This document shows positions 53,005 to 64,000 of a stretch of DNA of 64,000 nt, piece after piece. This stretch comes from Candidatus Thorarchaeota archaeon (lineage in GTDB: Archaea; Asgardarchaeota; Thorarchaeia; Thorarchaeales; Thorarchaeaceae). The position numbers were made by a program, and so were the translations under genes. Numbering within the stretch: the stretch's first letter is position 1; every line of letters starts with the position of its first letter. The notes below the pieces were generated by a model. It searched no databases, had not been told where the DNA came from, and worked only from the letters and a program-made list of their open reading frames with translations. The stretch is taken from NCBI GenBank assembly GCA_020348985.1, contig CP070761.1, positions 760,990 to 824,989 on the forward strand, in the 5' to 3' direction.

Positions 53005-53780
53005 TTGTCATGTCTGATAGTGGTGCACTCGCTTGGATCCTCGATGTCGAAGCCTACGACTTTGATATTGGTGTTCTCGCTGGCACCGACATCACCGGGA
53101 AAGCTCTGGTCATATCCCGTCAGTTGTGGTCTGTTATCAGAGGGGACAAGGTTGTCTCAATCCTTATTGGGCCGGGTGTGTTTAAGGGAGTGGCAGAGTC
53201 TGGACCCCGTAGAATCGAAGTCATGGAGCATCTTTCGGCTCTGATTTTCGACCCTGCAATGTTGAGATACGATGAACCAGTTCCACAAGTGGACATTGTC
53301 AATCCAGAGGTGATAGATCCGCTGTCCACATCAAAACCCGAGGAAATCTATGCCGTGATTAGGAAGCTGATAGTCGAGAAAGGAAACGTCCTAGCAGTTG
53401 ATCCATTGGTAAAAGTCAGCAGCGATGCAAATGTTCCTGAGACAGCGCATTATGCCGAAAGCTTGGAGAAGATCTCAGTCAGTCACGTTTCAGGGGTCCA
53501 AAGAGCCAGATTCATTCTGGCTGGGACCAATAGTCCGCTCTATCGCCCATTCGCTGACTGGTACGTGAAGGACAAGTACAGAAATCCTGAGCAGACCAAG
53601 ATCATGGACACCTTCTCATCAAAGTTCGCTGCGTTTGAGGACAACGAAACTTTGTCAGATTGGACAATAGTGGAGAAGTACGGCATAACCGAGGCAACCG
53701 GAATTGCCGCTCTCCAAGAGGAGTATCAGGCATCTTTCAACATCCTATCTCAGAACGAGGCGGCTTTCCTCTTCGACTAG
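53001..53780 (+). CDS. Hypothetical protein of the helicase cassette, 259 aa
   Basis: Soluble alpha/beta protein. The N-terminal 120 residues are beta-rich (LAWILDVEAYDFDIGVLAGT, KVVSILIGPGVFKGVAESG), the C-terminal part is helical and acidic, ending AAFLFD. No recognised motif. GTG start at 53001 overlaps the upstream stop; an ATG at 53010 is the alternative. The helicase starts 21 bp after its stop, at TTG 53801. Conserved company with a helicase suggests a subunit or regulator, by inference only. Confidence 0.68.
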   Translation: MIVMSDSGALAWILDVEAYDFDIGVLAGTDITGKALVISRQLWSVIRGDKVVSILIGPGVFKGVAESGPRRIEVMEHLSALIFDPAMLRYDEPVPQVDIVNPEVIDPLSTSKPEEIYAVIRKLIVEKGNVLAVDPLVKVSSDANVPETAHYAESLEKISVSHVSGVQRARFILAGTNSPLYRPFADWYVKDKYRNPEQTKIMDTFSSKFAAFEDNETLSDWTIVEKYGITEATGIAALQEEYQASFNILSQNEAAFLFD

Positions 53781-53800
53781 GGCCCCGACCGCAAAGGTCT

Positions 53801-56458
53801 TTGGTACACAGTATTGGCTTCAAAGACGAGGAGTTAGTCTTGGAGGTAGCGGATTCCGATATTCAGAAGCGACTCAAGAGCCCATATGTTCTCGTGCTAC
53901 GCGCCTCCAAGCAAGAGCTGGCAACGAGGATGGATCTCTTTTCTGACGTTCTCCGTGATAGACAGAGAGCATATCTAAGCGGTATGGTTGAATGGGCAAA
54001 GAGACAAGACAGTCTTCTTGATCTGAAACGTGCATGGTTCGTCAAGTACAACAAACCGGTCTACTACCAGCCTAAAGAGTTCAAGAACGTCCTAAAGAGT
54101 GCGAAGAAAATCATCATTCCACGTCACGATAAACCCCCGTTTGTGGGAGAATTGAAAGACTTCTTGAAGCGGAATGGCGTTCTTGGCCCTCGAATCATAC
54201 CACTGTGTGAGAGCTGCTTGCGCGAGAATCGTCTTACAGTCCTGACTCGTCGAAACGCTGTGAAATCCTCTGACACGAGTGCTTCATGCCTAACTTGCGC
54301 ACAATCAGATCTCAAGACCGATCTGAAGAGCCTTGGGTTCGACCTTTCGAAGGCAATGATCTCCCAGCTGGAAAAACAGCTTGCAAGAGTAAAATCTGTG
54401 CCTCGAATGATTGACCTGATGACACCCGGTTTTGACCCTTCACAGCAACCCGACTTGACTTTGGTCGACGAGATTACAGCCGAAATCTCTGAAAGGCGAA
54501 AGGGGATTGACTCACTCCCCCTTCCTGACGAAGTTAAGGAGGTGCTTGCGAGCGAAGGGCTTGAGTCTTTGCTTCCCATACAGGAACTAGTGATTGAAGC
54601 AGGACTCCTAAAGGATGAGAGTCTCCTTATAGTGTCCTCCACATCCTCCGGGAAGACTCTTCTTGGTGAGTTGGCTGGGGTGCCAAAGGCCATGAGCGGG
54701 AAACGGATGGTATACCTCTCTCCATTGGTGGCCCTAACCAACGAGAAGTATGAGCTATTCCGGTCGCGTTACAAGAAACTAGGTCTCAAGGTGGGCATCA
54801 AGGTTGGCATGTCTCGTCTAGATGTTGGTGATGAGGGGCGAGTAATCGTTGACACTGACATAACGAAATCTGACATCATTTGCGCGACATATGAGGCTCT
54901 TGACCTTCTTTTCCGGTCCGGTAATGTGCAGAGCATTTGTGATATCGGTACCGTCATTATTGATGAGATTCAGAACCTGTCTGATCCTGAACGTGGCCCC
55001 GAATTGGATGGCCTGCTTGCAAGATTGCGGTTCCATTCTCCCAAAGCACAAATCCTGGGCCTCTCGGCAACAATCGGCTCCCCCGAGAAATTGGCCAGGG
55101 AGCTCAAGTTGAAGTTGGTCAACAGCGTTGGCAGACCAGTCCCCCTTGAACGCCATCTCGTATTCGCACGAAATGATGATGCAAAAAGAACAATCATACG
55201 CCGGCTAGTGAAAAGTGAGTACAAGAAGGTCAGCAGCTTTGGCAAAAGGGGTCAATCGATAATCTTCACGTTCTCTCGCCGAAGGTCGCATGCTCTGCAA
55301 GAATGGTTACATAGCAACGGGGTCTCTAGTGCACTGTATCATGGGGGTCTGTCGTACGTAGAACGAAGAAGAACAGAGAAAGCATATGGCAAGCAGAGAT
55401 TCTCTTGCATTGTCACTACAGCGGCCTTGGGGGCCGGAGTAGATCTTCCTGCGTCTCAGGTAATATTCGAATCATTGGCCATGGGCGCCGACTGGTTGTC
55501 AACTGCCGAGTTTGAACAGATGCTTGGCAGAGCAGGTCGGTTAGGAAAGCATGACCGCGGCAAAGTGTATCTGGTTGTTGAACCCGGCCGCAAATATCAC
55601 GGAGGGCAAGACAAGTGTGAAGATGAAATCGCGGCAGACTTGCTCCGGGGCGATATTGAGGAAGTCGAACCGTTTGCCGATACTGAGACTAGCGCTGAGC
55701 AGATTCTGGCAACAATCTGCTCAACAGGACTAGTCAAGCTGAAAGACATTGCACGTGCCTACAACAGGATGCTCTCAGTTAGTGTTCCCCCCTCTGATGC
55801 ATTGAAACGTTTGGTGCGAACGCACATGATTCGCGTCAAAGAGGGCGGTGCACATCCGACTGAGCTAGGATTGGCGACTTCCCTTTCATTCCTCACACCA
55901 AGTAGAGGCTATGATGTCTTGAAGGCGTCGGAATCTTTGGATGTACTTGACATTGCAATCAGTCTCGACACGTTCGAGAATGTCTATCTTAGCTCAAGAC
56001 TTCAGGGCGAGGTAGATACTGCATTCAGAACTCACATGCCGACAAGGTTGTTCTCAGGTGTTTTCGCTGACTTGACAGATTTGAAGAAGCCCACTGGAGG
56101 ATCCGGAAGACTTCCAAAATGGGTCTTCGAGGTTTTTGGGAAATGGACTACTGACTTCTTCAATTGCGGATGTAGAGACTTTCCTGAGTGTGATCATGGC
56201 AAGATCAAGTTAGGGAAATGGATTGTGGAACGTCGACTAGAAGGATTGAACCCTTCTGTCATAGCGAGGAAGCTGATCAACTCGTATGAGCTGTGGGCCT
56301 ACCCGGGAGATCTCTTCTCTTGGCTCGACTCTCTTATCCACAATCTTAATGCAGTGAAGCGCATTGCGGCAGTTGCTGGAAAGACCGACCTTGGTGAGCA
56401 AATCGAGGATCAGATCGCACGTATCGAGAGACCTCTGACGTTCTCGAAGAGCGAATGA
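53801..56458 (+). CDS. Large Ski2-like superfamily 2 helicase
   Basis: About 885 aa from TTG 53801 (with AAAGGTC just upstream); the open frame back to 53660 overlaps the previous gene and is rejected. An N-terminal domain of about 230 residues carries a CxxC pair (136/139) and CxxC (163/166), a probable zinc finger. The helicase core follows: motif I SSTSSGKT 279-286, motif II DEIQ 388-391, SAT 422-424, and motif VI QMLGRAGRLG. The C-terminal region ends with a Cys-rich FFNCGCRDFPECDHGK and a helical domain (LELWAYPGDLFSWLDSL-like). This layout matches archaeal Ski2-like helicases of the MJ1401 type, of unknown substrate. Confidence 0.88.
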   Translation: MVHSIGFKDEELVLEVADSDIQKRLKSPYVLVLRASKQELATRMDLFSDVLRDRQRAYLSGMVEWAKRQDSLLDLKRAWFVKYNKPVYYQPKEFKNVLKSAKKIIIPRHDKPPFVGELKDFLKRNGVLGPRIIPLCESCLRENRLTVLTRRNAVKSSDTSASCLTCAQSDLKTDLKSLGFDLSKAMISQLEKQLARVKSVPRMIDLMTPGFDPSQQPDLTLVDEITAEISERRKGIDSLPLPDEVKEVLASEGLESLLPIQELVIEAGLLKDESLLIVSSTSSGKTLLGELAGVPKAMSGKRMVYLSPLVALTNEKYELFRSRYKKLGLKVGIKVGMSRLDVGDEGRVIVDTDITKSDIICATYEALDLLFRSGNVQSICDIGTVIIDEIQNLSDPERGPELDGLLARLRFHSPKAQILGLSATIGSPEKLARELKLKLVNSVGRPVPLERHLVFARNDDAKRTIIRRLVKSEYKKVSSFGKRGQSIIFTFSRRRSHALQEWLHSNGVSSALYHGGLSYVERRRTEKAYGKQRFSCIVTTAALGAGVDLPASQVIFESLAMGADWLSTAEFEQMLGRAGRLGKHDRGKVYLVVEPGRKYHGGQDKCEDEIAADLLRGDIEEVEPFADTETSAEQILATICSTGLVKLKDIARAYNRMLSVSVPPSDALKRLVRTHMIRVKEGGAHPTELGLATSLSFLTPSRGYDVLKASESLDVLDIAISLDTFENVYLSSRLQGEVDTAFRTHMPTRLFSGVFADLTDLKKPTGGSGRLPKWVFEVFGKWTTDFFNCGCRDFPECDHGKIKLGKWIVERRLEGLNPSVIARKLINSYELWAYPGDLFSWLDSLIHNLNAVKRIAAVAGKTDLGEQIEDQIARIERPLTFSKSE

Positions 56459-61170: not shown

Positions 61171-62160
61171 ATGCAGTCACTTGTATTGACTCATGATGGA
61201 CTACAGATAGCTGATACGCCATTGCCCCCTCTGATGCCCGGACATGTCAGGATTGAAGTAAGGTCAGTTGGAATCTGTTCACTAGATCTTGCCATCTGGA
61301 AGGGCAATGTGGAAGCGGAAATGCCCATCATTTTGGGTCATGAAATATCGGGCGTCGTCCATGAGAGCTCACTTCCTGAATTCCGACCGGCAACTCATGT
61401 TGCAATTGAAGCAGATCAGCATTGTGGAACGTGTTGGTTTTGCCGCCGAGGACGCAAGAACGTTTGTTTGCAGAAAAAGACTCTTGGAATCGACTTGGAC
61501 GGAGGAATGACTGAGTATCTAACTGTTCCAGTAGACTCTGTGTTTCCGCTTCCAGAGGGAATAGACGATAATGCGGGGACTTTCATTGAGCCTTTGGCAG
61601 CAGCCATTCAGACATATGAGACAACACCTTCACAGCCCGATGAGGCCGTCGTTGTGATCGGTAGTGGGAAACTTGGACTCCTGATTGCCCAGGTCTACGA
61701 TGCCTATGGTGCAGATGTACACGTTGTTGGCAAGAATAAGTGGCAATTGGGGTTGGCACGGCAGCTGGGCCTCAGAAACACACACAACATCAAGGAATCA
61801 AACTGGAGGCAGTCTGTGTTGAATGCCACGGCAGGAGTCGGTTCAAGAATAGTAGTTGAGGCAACCGGCTCACCGACAGGTTTTGACATGGCCACAGAGA
61901 TTGTTCGCAGTGAAGGAGTAGTAGCGATAAAGAGCACTCATGGATCAAAACATGGCGTTGATTTGAACGAGATTGTCCAGAGAGGACTTCGTATTCAGGG
62001 CACAACCGGAGGGTCATTCAGCAAGGCCATCGATCTTCTTTCAAAGGGCAGAATTGAAGTGAAGCGTCTAATCTCAGGTCAGTTTGGACTGGAGCAAGGG
62101 GCAGAGGCATTCAGATTCGCAGACCGGCCTGAGAACACCAAGGTAATCGTAAATGTCTGA
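61171..62160 (+). CDS. Zinc-dependent medium-chain alcohol dehydrogenase
   Basis: 329 aa MDR enzyme. Catalytic zinc ligands: C36 in VGICSLDLAIWKG and H-E in LGHEISG; structural zinc CGTCWFCRRGRKNVC (four Cys); NAD(P) Rossmann VVIGSGKLGLLIAQ. The best fit is the sorbitol/threonine dehydrogenase branch, acting on a polyol or secondary alcohol; substrate unknown. GGGGA before the ATG at 61171. EndoQ follows after 11 bp and the next gene overlaps, so it heads an operon with DNA-repair-related members, an odd pairing. Confidence 0.88.
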   Translation: MQSLVLTHDGLQIADTPLPPLMPGHVRIEVRSVGICSLDLAIWKGNVEAEMPIILGHEISGVVHESSLPEFRPATHVAIEADQHCGTCWFCRRGRKNVCLQKKTLGIDLDGGMTEYLTVPVDSVFPLPEGIDDNAGTFIEPLAAAIQTYETTPSQPDEAVVVIGSGKLGLLIAQVYDAYGADVHVVGKNKWQLGLARQLGLRNTHNIKESNWRQSVLNATAGVGSRIVVEATGSPTGFDMATEIVRSEGVVAIKSTHGSKHGVDLNEIVQRGLRIQGTTGGSFSKAIDLLSKGRIEVKRLISGQFGLEQGAEAFRFADRPENTKVIVNV

Positions 62161-62171
62161 GGAACCATGGA

Positions 62172-63449
62172 ATGGAGGAATTTGACGCAGATCTCCACAT
62201 TCACTCGCACCACTCCATTGGTGTGAGCAAGAATATGACAGTCCCAAACCTGGTTGAGGGTGCTAGGCAAAAGGGACTTAGCATTCTTGGCACAGGCGAC
62301 GTCACACAACCGGGCTGGTTAGGGCATCTGAGGAACACGCTCAAAGAGAGGGATGAGACTCTCATTCATGATGACATTGCATTTGTATTGTCAGTCGAAA
62401 TAGAGGATGTCGAAGCGATTCATCATCTAGTATTTCTTCCAGGCTTTGAATCAGTTGTAGCACTCAAGGAGAGTCTTCGGGAATACTCGTCGAATTTGGA
62501 TCATCAGTGGGGCGGGCGACCACGTGTAAACATCAGAGGTGAGCAACTCGCAGGGTTCGTCAGAGATGTGGGTGGACTAATCGGTCCTGCGCATGCATTC
62601 ACACCATTTCGATCCATCTTTCGTGAAGGCAGGTATGAAGACCTCGTTGGATGCTACGGCAGTGAAGTGGATAGCGTCAAATTCATTGAGCTTGGATTAT
62701 CCGCTGACTCCAAGATGGCTGATTGTATACCATCTCTACGGGAGCTGACATTCTTGACATGTAGCGACGCACACTCCCCTTCACCAGCCAAGCTGGGCAG
62801 AGAGTTCGTCCGGTTCAGAATAGAGCGTCGCAACTTCCCGGAGATTCGTCTGGCGATTCTAAGGGAGAAAGGGAGGGCGCCTGTTCTAAACGTTGGTCTG
62901 AACCCGAGACTTGGTAAGTACTACCTGTCATTCTGTTCTGCATGCAGACGAACAATCATTCTTGAACCAGGGGATTCCAGTCCCAGCTTTGATGATCTTA
63001 ACATATACATTTCATTCTCTGATGCCAAAGAGCGACAGTCAATATTGAGGGCAATACATGACCGCGCGGTCTTTTGTCCGCATGATGGAAAGACCCTCCG
63101 TCTTGGTGTTAGGGATAGAGCAGTGATGATCGGTGGAGGTGACGAATCCAAACCTCTTCACCGCCCGCCATATATCCACATTCCGCCTCTTCTCGAACTG
63201 ATTACATCAGCATTGGGAGTCTCCTCGCCCTCTTCAAAGAAGGCTAGGACCCTCTACGAAAGACTCCGTGAATCACTTGGCCCGGAAACAACCATTCTCA
63301 CATCAACTCCTATCGATAGCTTGCATGAACTTGACTCAGCAGTCGCAGGAATGATAAGCGCGTTTCGGGAGGGTTCTGTTAACTACATCCCTGGCGGTGG
63401 AGGCAGGTATGGCCGTCTGATACCACCTTGGAAGAATGATTCGCAATGA
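62172..63449 (+). CDS. Endonuclease Q
   Basis: 425 aa. The PHP nuclease domain starts ADLHIHSHHS (D7, H9, H11), followed by GTGDVTQPGWLGHL and, at about 197-203, CSDAHSPSP, as in the TIGR00375/EndoQ family. A zinc module follows with CSAC at 255-258 and CPHDGKTLRLGVRDRAV from 302; the usual CPxCGG is altered so that the fourth Cys is Asp (an adjacent His may substitute). HRPPYIHIPPLLELI and the C-terminal helical part also fit. EndoQ cleaves 5' to uracil, hypoxanthine, xanthine and abasic sites. GAGGA before the ATG overlaps the ADH stop. The next gene overlaps by 4 bp (ATGA). Confidence 0.9.
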   Translation: MEEFDADLHIHSHHSIGVSKNMTVPNLVEGARQKGLSILGTGDVTQPGWLGHLRNTLKERDETLIHDDIAFVLSVEIEDVEAIHHLVFLPGFESVVALKESLREYSSNLDHQWGGRPRVNIRGEQLAGFVRDVGGLIGPAHAFTPFRSIFREGRYEDLVGCYGSEVDSVKFIELGLSADSKMADCIPSLRELTFLTCSDAHSPSPAKLGREFVRFRIERRNFPEIRLAILREKGRAPVLNVGLNPRLGKYYLSFCSACRRTIILEPGDSSPSFDDLNIYISFSDAKERQSILRAIHDRAVFCPHDGKTLRLGVRDRAVMIGGGDESKPLHRPPYIHIPPLLELITSALGVSSPSSKKARTLYERLRESLGPETTILTSTPIDSLHELDSAVAGMISAFREGSVNYIPGGGGRYGRLIPPWKNDSQ

Positions 63450-63772
63450 CCGTGGTTCGAGGAATAATCAGGGAAGTCGGGCCTACCCGTACAAGACAAG
63501 TTAGTGCTCGTAGATGGACATCTTCAACCGAGATTGTCATTCAGGATGAATCGACCATGAAGACTTACAGTGTACATGTATCAGGACGTACACTACAGAA
63601 GTCTAGCTTCCTTCCCCGTGTAGGAATACAGGTTGTCGTTCACGGATATGTTGAGGAAGCTGAATATGGCATCTCCGACTTTGTGGTGACCAGAGTAGTG
63701 AGCATCAAACACGTGGGGGCGGACCGAAAACGCACAATCAGATTCGACGATGTCGAATCCGAAGGTGATTAG
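63446..63772 (+). CDS. OB-fold-like small protein coupled to EndoQ
   Basis: 108 aa, all-beta prediction: TVVRGIIREVGPTRTRQVSA, then TSSTEIVIQDESTMKTYSVH, LPRVGIQVVVHGYVEEAEYG and DFVVTRVVSIK. The five-strand layout with a GxVE/GYVEE turn before the fifth strand is like an OB-fold nucleic-acid-binding domain (RPA/NucS type). The C-terminal tail is charged (DDVESEGD). The ATG overlaps the EndoQ stop by 4 bp, so translation is coupled; a single-strand-binding partner of EndoQ is my inference. The fold call is moderate. Confidence 0.6.
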   Translation: MTVVRGIIREVGPTRTRQVSARRWTSSTEIVIQDESTMKTYSVHVSGRTLQKSSFLPRVGIQVVVHGYVEEAEYGISDFVVTRVVSIKHVGADRKRTIRFDDVESEGD

Positions 63773-63777
63773 GATGT

Positions 63778-64000
63778 CTAGTTTCTCGAGTCCCTGACTA
63801 TGAATCTCGCATCAAGAATCCATCCTGATTTGCACTTTGGACATTTTGACGGTTTCTTTGTGGACTTCCTTCCTTTGAACACAAATCCACACTTGCCGCA
63901 ACTAGCGGGTAAACTGACAAGCTCCTTCCCCTCGTTCCGGACTGAAAGTGCTATGTGTTGAAGGTCTTCATACACAATGGATCTGGATTTGAGACCCAGC
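63778..64000 (-). CDS. HTH plus Zn-ribbon regulator, COG3357-like (cut by window edge)
   Basis: The visible 74 codons read in from the window end: SRSIVYEDLQHIALSVRNEG, then ELVSLPASCGKCGFVFKGRK, PSKCPKCKSGWILDARFIV. This matches the archaeal COG3357 pattern of a helix-turn-helix followed by PA-x-C-x2-C-GFVFK and CPKC zinc ribbon. The frame stays open to 64000, so the N-terminal HTH is truncated by the window rather than the GTG at 63975 being the real start. Predicted transcription regulator; convergent with the OB-like gene. Confidence 0.75.
   Translation of the reverse strand, partial: LGLKSRSIVYEDLQHIALSVRNEGKELVSLPASCGKCGFVFKGRKSTKKPSKCPKCKSGWILDARFIVRDSRN

Follow-up and report, generated by a model that had tools for sequence, protein, structure and literature searches.

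We identified a gene for a small protein with a predicted OB fold that overlaps the endonuclease Q (EndoQ) gene in a chromosome of the Thorarchaeia (Asgard), and the tight pairing of the two genes is kept in most genomes of the Thorarchaeia family. The chromosome consists of one contig of 3.16 Mb, from which a stretch of 64,000 nucleotides, called the window in the following, was analyzed. An earlier note on this DNA had considered an operonic OB partner of EndoQ as not previously known, and indeed no earlier report of such a partner was found in the open-licence PMC literature. Tentatively, we favor the reading that the OB protein is an accessory, non-obligate SSB-like factor which is co-produced with EndoQ and belongs to the same repair setting. 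All functional conclusions are predictions from sequence and fold. The following features of the window are considered here:

61171..62160, + strand: MDR gene (zinc-type alcohol/threonine-dehydrogenase-like), 329 aa; ADH_N 1.2e-24, ADH_zinc_N 3.2e-16
62172..63449, + strand: EndoQ gene, 425 aa, with PHP domain, Zn-finger region and C-terminal domain, without a C-terminal PIP box
62184..62966, + strand: N-terminal PHP/Zn part of EndoQ, residues 5-265; first phmmer stretch to 5zb8, 222.9 bits
63446..63449, + strand: ATGA overlap, in which TGA is the EndoQ stop and ATG the start of the OB gene
63446..63772, + strand: small gene with predicted OB fold, 108 aa, with a basic core and a low-confidence tail; tip RFDDVESEGD
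63778..64000, - strand: PF0610-like helix-turn-helix and zinc-ribbon gene, convergent, 100 aa, extending past the window end; position conserved

Judged by its sequence matches, the product of 62172-63449 is a genuine EndoQ, and this identity is secure. It was matched by phmmer to PfuEndoQ (5zb8) with E=8.4e-86 in two stretches (residues 5-265 and 301-419) and to 7k30 and 7k31 with E of about 4e-85; the match to TIGR00375 (2.4e-71) is under the curated cut-off of that family. The residues of the PHP metal site (D7, H9, H11, E76, H84, H141, D199, H201) are invariant among 24 Asgard EndoQs. With the Pyrococcus/Thermococcus EndoQ (TIGR00375, COG1379; 5zb8, 7k30-7k33) the protein shares a nearly full-length family match, the PHP residues and the GGGG-x-YG motif in the C-terminal part. 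In contrast to these enzymes, it has no C-terminal PIP box, the segment between the halves of the Zn finger is about 28 residues longer, and its gene overlaps an OB gene. A further difference concerns the four-Cys Zn motif between the two parts of the protein, in which C255, C258 and C302 are retained and the position of the fourth Cys is taken by Asp (CPHDG; residues 302-306, window 63075-63089). Several Thorarchaeia relatives likewise carry Asp at this position, others Cys.

The C-terminal end of the window EndoQ reads ...GGGGRYGRLIPPWKNDSQ, with PPWKNDSQ as the last residues, and stops before any PIP box. Among 37 Asgard EndoQs inspected (set L111-L150), a textbook C-terminal PIP box was found in only five, belonging to the families f4, f26 and f27 (e.g., QTKLTDF, QLSLDEF, QRLLTDY), and it is absent from all EndoQs of the Thorarchaeia and of the Asgard family f20 in this set. 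Most EndoQs of archaea, though not all, have a PIP box for PCNA. EndoQ of the Thermococcales binds PCNA via a PIP box, which is not obligatory in the EndoQ family, as the Methanomicrobiales proteins lack it (PMC4858679). An interactome study in Pyrococcus also linked the EndoQ homologue Pab0431 with PCNA (PMC3820547). The link of EndoQ with PCNA, named in the earlier note, is known from the Thermococcales; its direct transfer to the Thorarchaeia is improbable, because their EndoQ ends before a PIP box. Several f20 genomes encode a second, shorter EndoQ-like protein of about 396 aa, also without PIP box (L135, L136).

The overlap of the EndoQ stop with the next ATG, described in the earlier note, is present as ATGA at 63446-63449, with both open reading frames on the + strand. 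EndoQ is located immediately upstream of the OB gene at 34 of 36 Thorarchaeia loci measured. The spacing of these directly adjacent junctions is between -4 and +6 bp in 33 of 34 cases and exactly -4 in 19 of them; the sole outlier (-58) is found at a locus where the EndoQ frame contains an internal TGA. ATGA overlaps are common enough in this genome, being possible at 4 of the 32 co-directional neighbor pairs of the window. Given the spacing kept across the Thorarchaeia loci, the overlap of EndoQ and OB is not due to chance. We infer a shared transcript for the two genes. At some loci of relatives the expected start codon of the OB gene (ATG, GTG or TTG) is replaced, by CTG at four and by ATA at one (L009, L148, L017, L061, L013). 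At two of these loci, L009 and L013, no canonical in-frame OB start was found upstream. The replaced codons point to a non-canonical start or a shorter protein.

Within the family the OB gene was detected in 40 of 47 genomes and EndoQ in 39 of 47. Both genes are located on one contig in 36 genomes, and in 35 of these they are immediate neighbors on the same strand; among 13 sampled genera, 11 show the coupling. In genome G012 the two genes are 1.5 kb apart and separated by an unrelated gene on the opposite strand. In genome G037 the OB gene is found in its usual place between the genes for the MDR and the Zn protein, and EndoQ is cleanly absent from the locus. EndoQ was not found elsewhere in G037, a MAG of about 90% completeness, so that a copy elsewhere is conceivable. 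A common loss of the EndoQ C-terminus and the OB gene in G034 was considered and rejected: a run of N at L058:8392-8491 cuts EndoQ, so that the apparent loss represents an assembly gap, although the genome is listed as one contig. The loci of G013, G033 and G035 stop at contig edges and are uninformative on gene loss.

Outside the Thorarchaeia, EndoQ was identified in 102 further Asgard genomes. The expectation that EndoQ is always accompanied by the OB partner in relatives was not borne out, since in none of these 102 genomes an OB relative adjoins EndoQ. Close homologues of the OB protein are absent from Asgard genomes outside the Thorarchaeia family, and no small co-directional OB gene was present directly downstream of EndoQ in about two dozen non-Thorarchaeia Asgard neighborhoods examined. 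Distant homologues of 96-100 aa (L094-L108) were found in 24 genomes, all from a single further Asgard family, f20, which probably represents the Lokiarchaeia. They were matched by a profile built from Thorarchaeia members only with E values of 1e-4 to 1e-6, and down to 3e-35 with a joint profile that itself includes some f20 members. A common YSV...FLPRVG...G...D motif marks them as homologous to the Thorarchaeia OB protein. They differ from the window protein in their low identity (22-29%), the missing acidic tip and their other neighbors, and they are located far away from EndoQ or on different contigs, adjoining TPR or Zn-ribbon genes and not repair genes. EndoQ and the OB gene thus each exist without the other. 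Therefore, the OB protein has the appearance of a helper of EndoQ, or a neighbor in its operon, that is specific to this lineage, and not of a required part of the enzyme. A different tight neighbor of EndoQ was observed in the Asgard family f6, where only 14-15 bp lie between a ZPR1-like gene and EndoQ downstream of it (L125:2461-3042, L127:4621-5223; jr-ZPR1 2.6e-16 and 2.3e-20).

The 108-aa open reading frame is, on the grounds of its conservation in sequence across the family, a real gene: it recurs with 45-70% identity in 40 of the 47 genomes of the family, and an alignment of 20 sequences contains 20 invariant positions. Searches against Pfam, NCBIfam and PHROGs gave nothing above noise, and viral relatives were not found. 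As suggested in the earlier note, the partner is OB-like. The AlphaFold model, computed from the 20-sequence alignment, has a mean pLDDT of 86 and contains strands at residues 2-20, 23-33 and 40-46, a helix at 47-52 and strands at 62-71 and 79-89. This is the topology of an OB barrel, five strands with the helix placed between the third and the fourth, and the fold is predicted confidently. In a Foldseek search of the PDB the nearest structures are domains of archaeal RPA, bacterial SSB and PriB; the best match is 3dm3 (E 2.6e-3, probability 1.00, TM 0.65), and no match is below 1e-3. The protein resembles the archaeal RPA OB domains (3dm3, 2k50, 2k5v) and bacterial SSB/PriB (4dam, 5gqo, 2ccz) in fold and size, but it is only 14-21% identical to them and gives neither a significant sequence-profile match nor a match to a family model. 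By these comparisons it constitutes a new small OB family that is not represented in the libraries searched (Pfam, NCBIfam, PHROGs). All 22 members tested are basic (pI 7.9-9.8). After residue 89-90 the model has no helix and a low pLDDT. Although it is part of this low-confidence tail, the C-terminal tip is kept, running from basic over hydrophobic to acidic ([RKHS][FLI][DE]; e.g., RFDD, KFDDE, KLD) in 36 of 38 Thorarchaeia members. This hydrophobic-acidic tip is reminiscent of the acidic SSB tail in bacteria, as a resemblance only. From the modeled fold and the basic charge, the 108-aa protein is probably a nucleic-acid binder, presumably with an accessory role on single strands. Separate RPA-type proteins are encoded elsewhere in the genome: a multi-OB protein of 593 aa, a protein of 235 aa whose gene adjoins a FEN1-like gene, and small OB proteins (PF01336; the names FEN1 and RPA were assigned by reading). 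Therefore, the role of the main ssDNA binder probably does not fall to the 108-aa protein. In genome G000, a 264-aa protein (L168:2505-3299, - strand) appears by reading to be a fusion of a GNAT acetyltransferase with an OB domain of RPA type (PF01336 match).

The gene pair is embedded in a syntenic block of 8-10 kb, with the gene order MBL, GNAT-like, LLM-like, MDR, EndoQ, OB, PF0610-like Zn protein, Nre and two membrane-type genes in most of the family. The MDR gene is the first of the co-directional run, ends 11 bp before EndoQ in the window and keeps this place immediately in front of EndoQ at almost all Thorarchaeia loci. The PF0610-like gene, taken in its full length (L149:4771-5070), was matched by PF21476 (1.9e-16) and PF23470 (9.6e-13). 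The Nre gene, conserved in the locus, starts about 0.4 kb downstream in the window genome; its product was matched by PF04894 (1.3e-87) and has a PIP-like end (QSTLTDF). In Haloferax, Nre functions in PCNA-dependent repair (PMC4929162), and its presence in the block gives the surroundings of the Thorarchaeia EndoQ a repair flavor. Elsewhere in the window (53660-56458, + strand) a 932-aa protein shows superfamily 2 helicase motifs (SSTSSGKT, DEIQ, QMLGRAGR), read from the sequence alone.

This conserved surrounding has to be weighed against the idea of a functional pair. The OB protein could be an operon passenger with an unrelated housekeeping role, e.g., in RNA binding or translation, which adjoins EndoQ by frozen gene order; we regard this as somewhat unlikely. 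Since the whole locus is equally conserved, the EndoQ-OB pair is not set apart by adjacency alone: its adjacency is no better kept than that of EndoQ and the MDR gene on the other side, which looks functionally unrelated. A co-evolution of EndoQ and OB, apparent as a distance correlation (partial r 0.65), was rejected because the signal vanishes without two divergent genomes. The partial r is then 0.45 for EndoQ-OB as well as for MDR-OB, and the correlations of OB with its neighbors are alike. The retention of the OB gene in G037 and the TPR or Zn-ribbon surroundings of the f20 homologues also agree with a passenger. On the other hand, the length of the EndoQ-OB junction is fixed to a few bases, in contrast to several variable flanking distances of the locus, and the same conserved block contains the repair factor Nre.

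A closer relation was proposed in the idea of a dedicated EndoQ subunit or loader, in which the OB protein would substitute for the missing PIP/PCNA tether and bring EndoQ to single-stranded or damaged DNA. In its favor, the Thorarchaeia EndoQ has no PIP box, in contrast to the PCNA-binding Thermococcales enzyme (PMC4858679), the overlap is conserved and the partner has a predicted OB fold. However, we consider it unlikely, as the OB gene persists without EndoQ in G037 and the pair is split by the unrelated gene in G012. As a general replacement of the PIP box the OB protein is not supported, because f20-type Asgard EndoQs lack both the PIP box and an OB neighbor.

It is very improbable that the OB protein represents a divergent subunit of the Rpa3 (RPA14) type in the archaeal RPA complex. 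Both are small proteins with one OB fold and share an LPxVGxxVxVxG stretch, RPA subunits are among the Foldseek matches and Pyrococcus RPA14 was the best match in the sequence-profile search of the PDB, but this match is non-significant (E=0.58) and confined to the generic stretch. Moreover, Rpa3 contains a trimerisation helix at its C-terminus and is itself no ssDNA binder (PMC10122647), whereas the model ends in a helix-free tail after residue 89.

The reading of the OB protein as an accessory, SSB-like factor, which we hold possible and prefer with reservation, takes up the tight same-strand junction (35/36), the modeled OB fold near RPA, SSB and PriB, the basic charge, the conserved tip (36/38), the nearby Nre with its PIP-like end and the separate RPA-type proteins. 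Against it stand the equal adjacency of the MDR gene, the missing specific distance correlation, the OB gene without EndoQ in G037 and the f20 homologues away from EndoQ. Under this accessory reading, EndoQ and the OB protein would be made from one message and may act jointly. The OB protein would most likely bind and cover the short single strand at a deaminated base, or the one left after EndoQ has nicked 5' of the base. Its tip may dock a repair partner, i.e., EndoQ, Nre or a downstream enzyme, like the acidic tail of bacterial SSB. An extended version, to which we give little credence, would be a PCNA-independent EndoQ repair in the Thorarchaeia, in which EndoQ, itself without PIP box, is co-translated with a dedicated SSB-like OB protein; the latter would bind to the strand with the lesion and, via its conserved acidic tip, pass the nicked end on to downstream factors.

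The finding bears on the recruitment of EndoQ to lesions and on the steps after the nick outside the Thermococcales. It names a small OB family that was missing from the libraries searched, and it gives a concrete set of three proteins, an EndoQ without PIP box, the product of the conserved OB gene overlapping it and the nearby Nre, in the Asgard lineage, which among the archaea is closest to eukaryotes.
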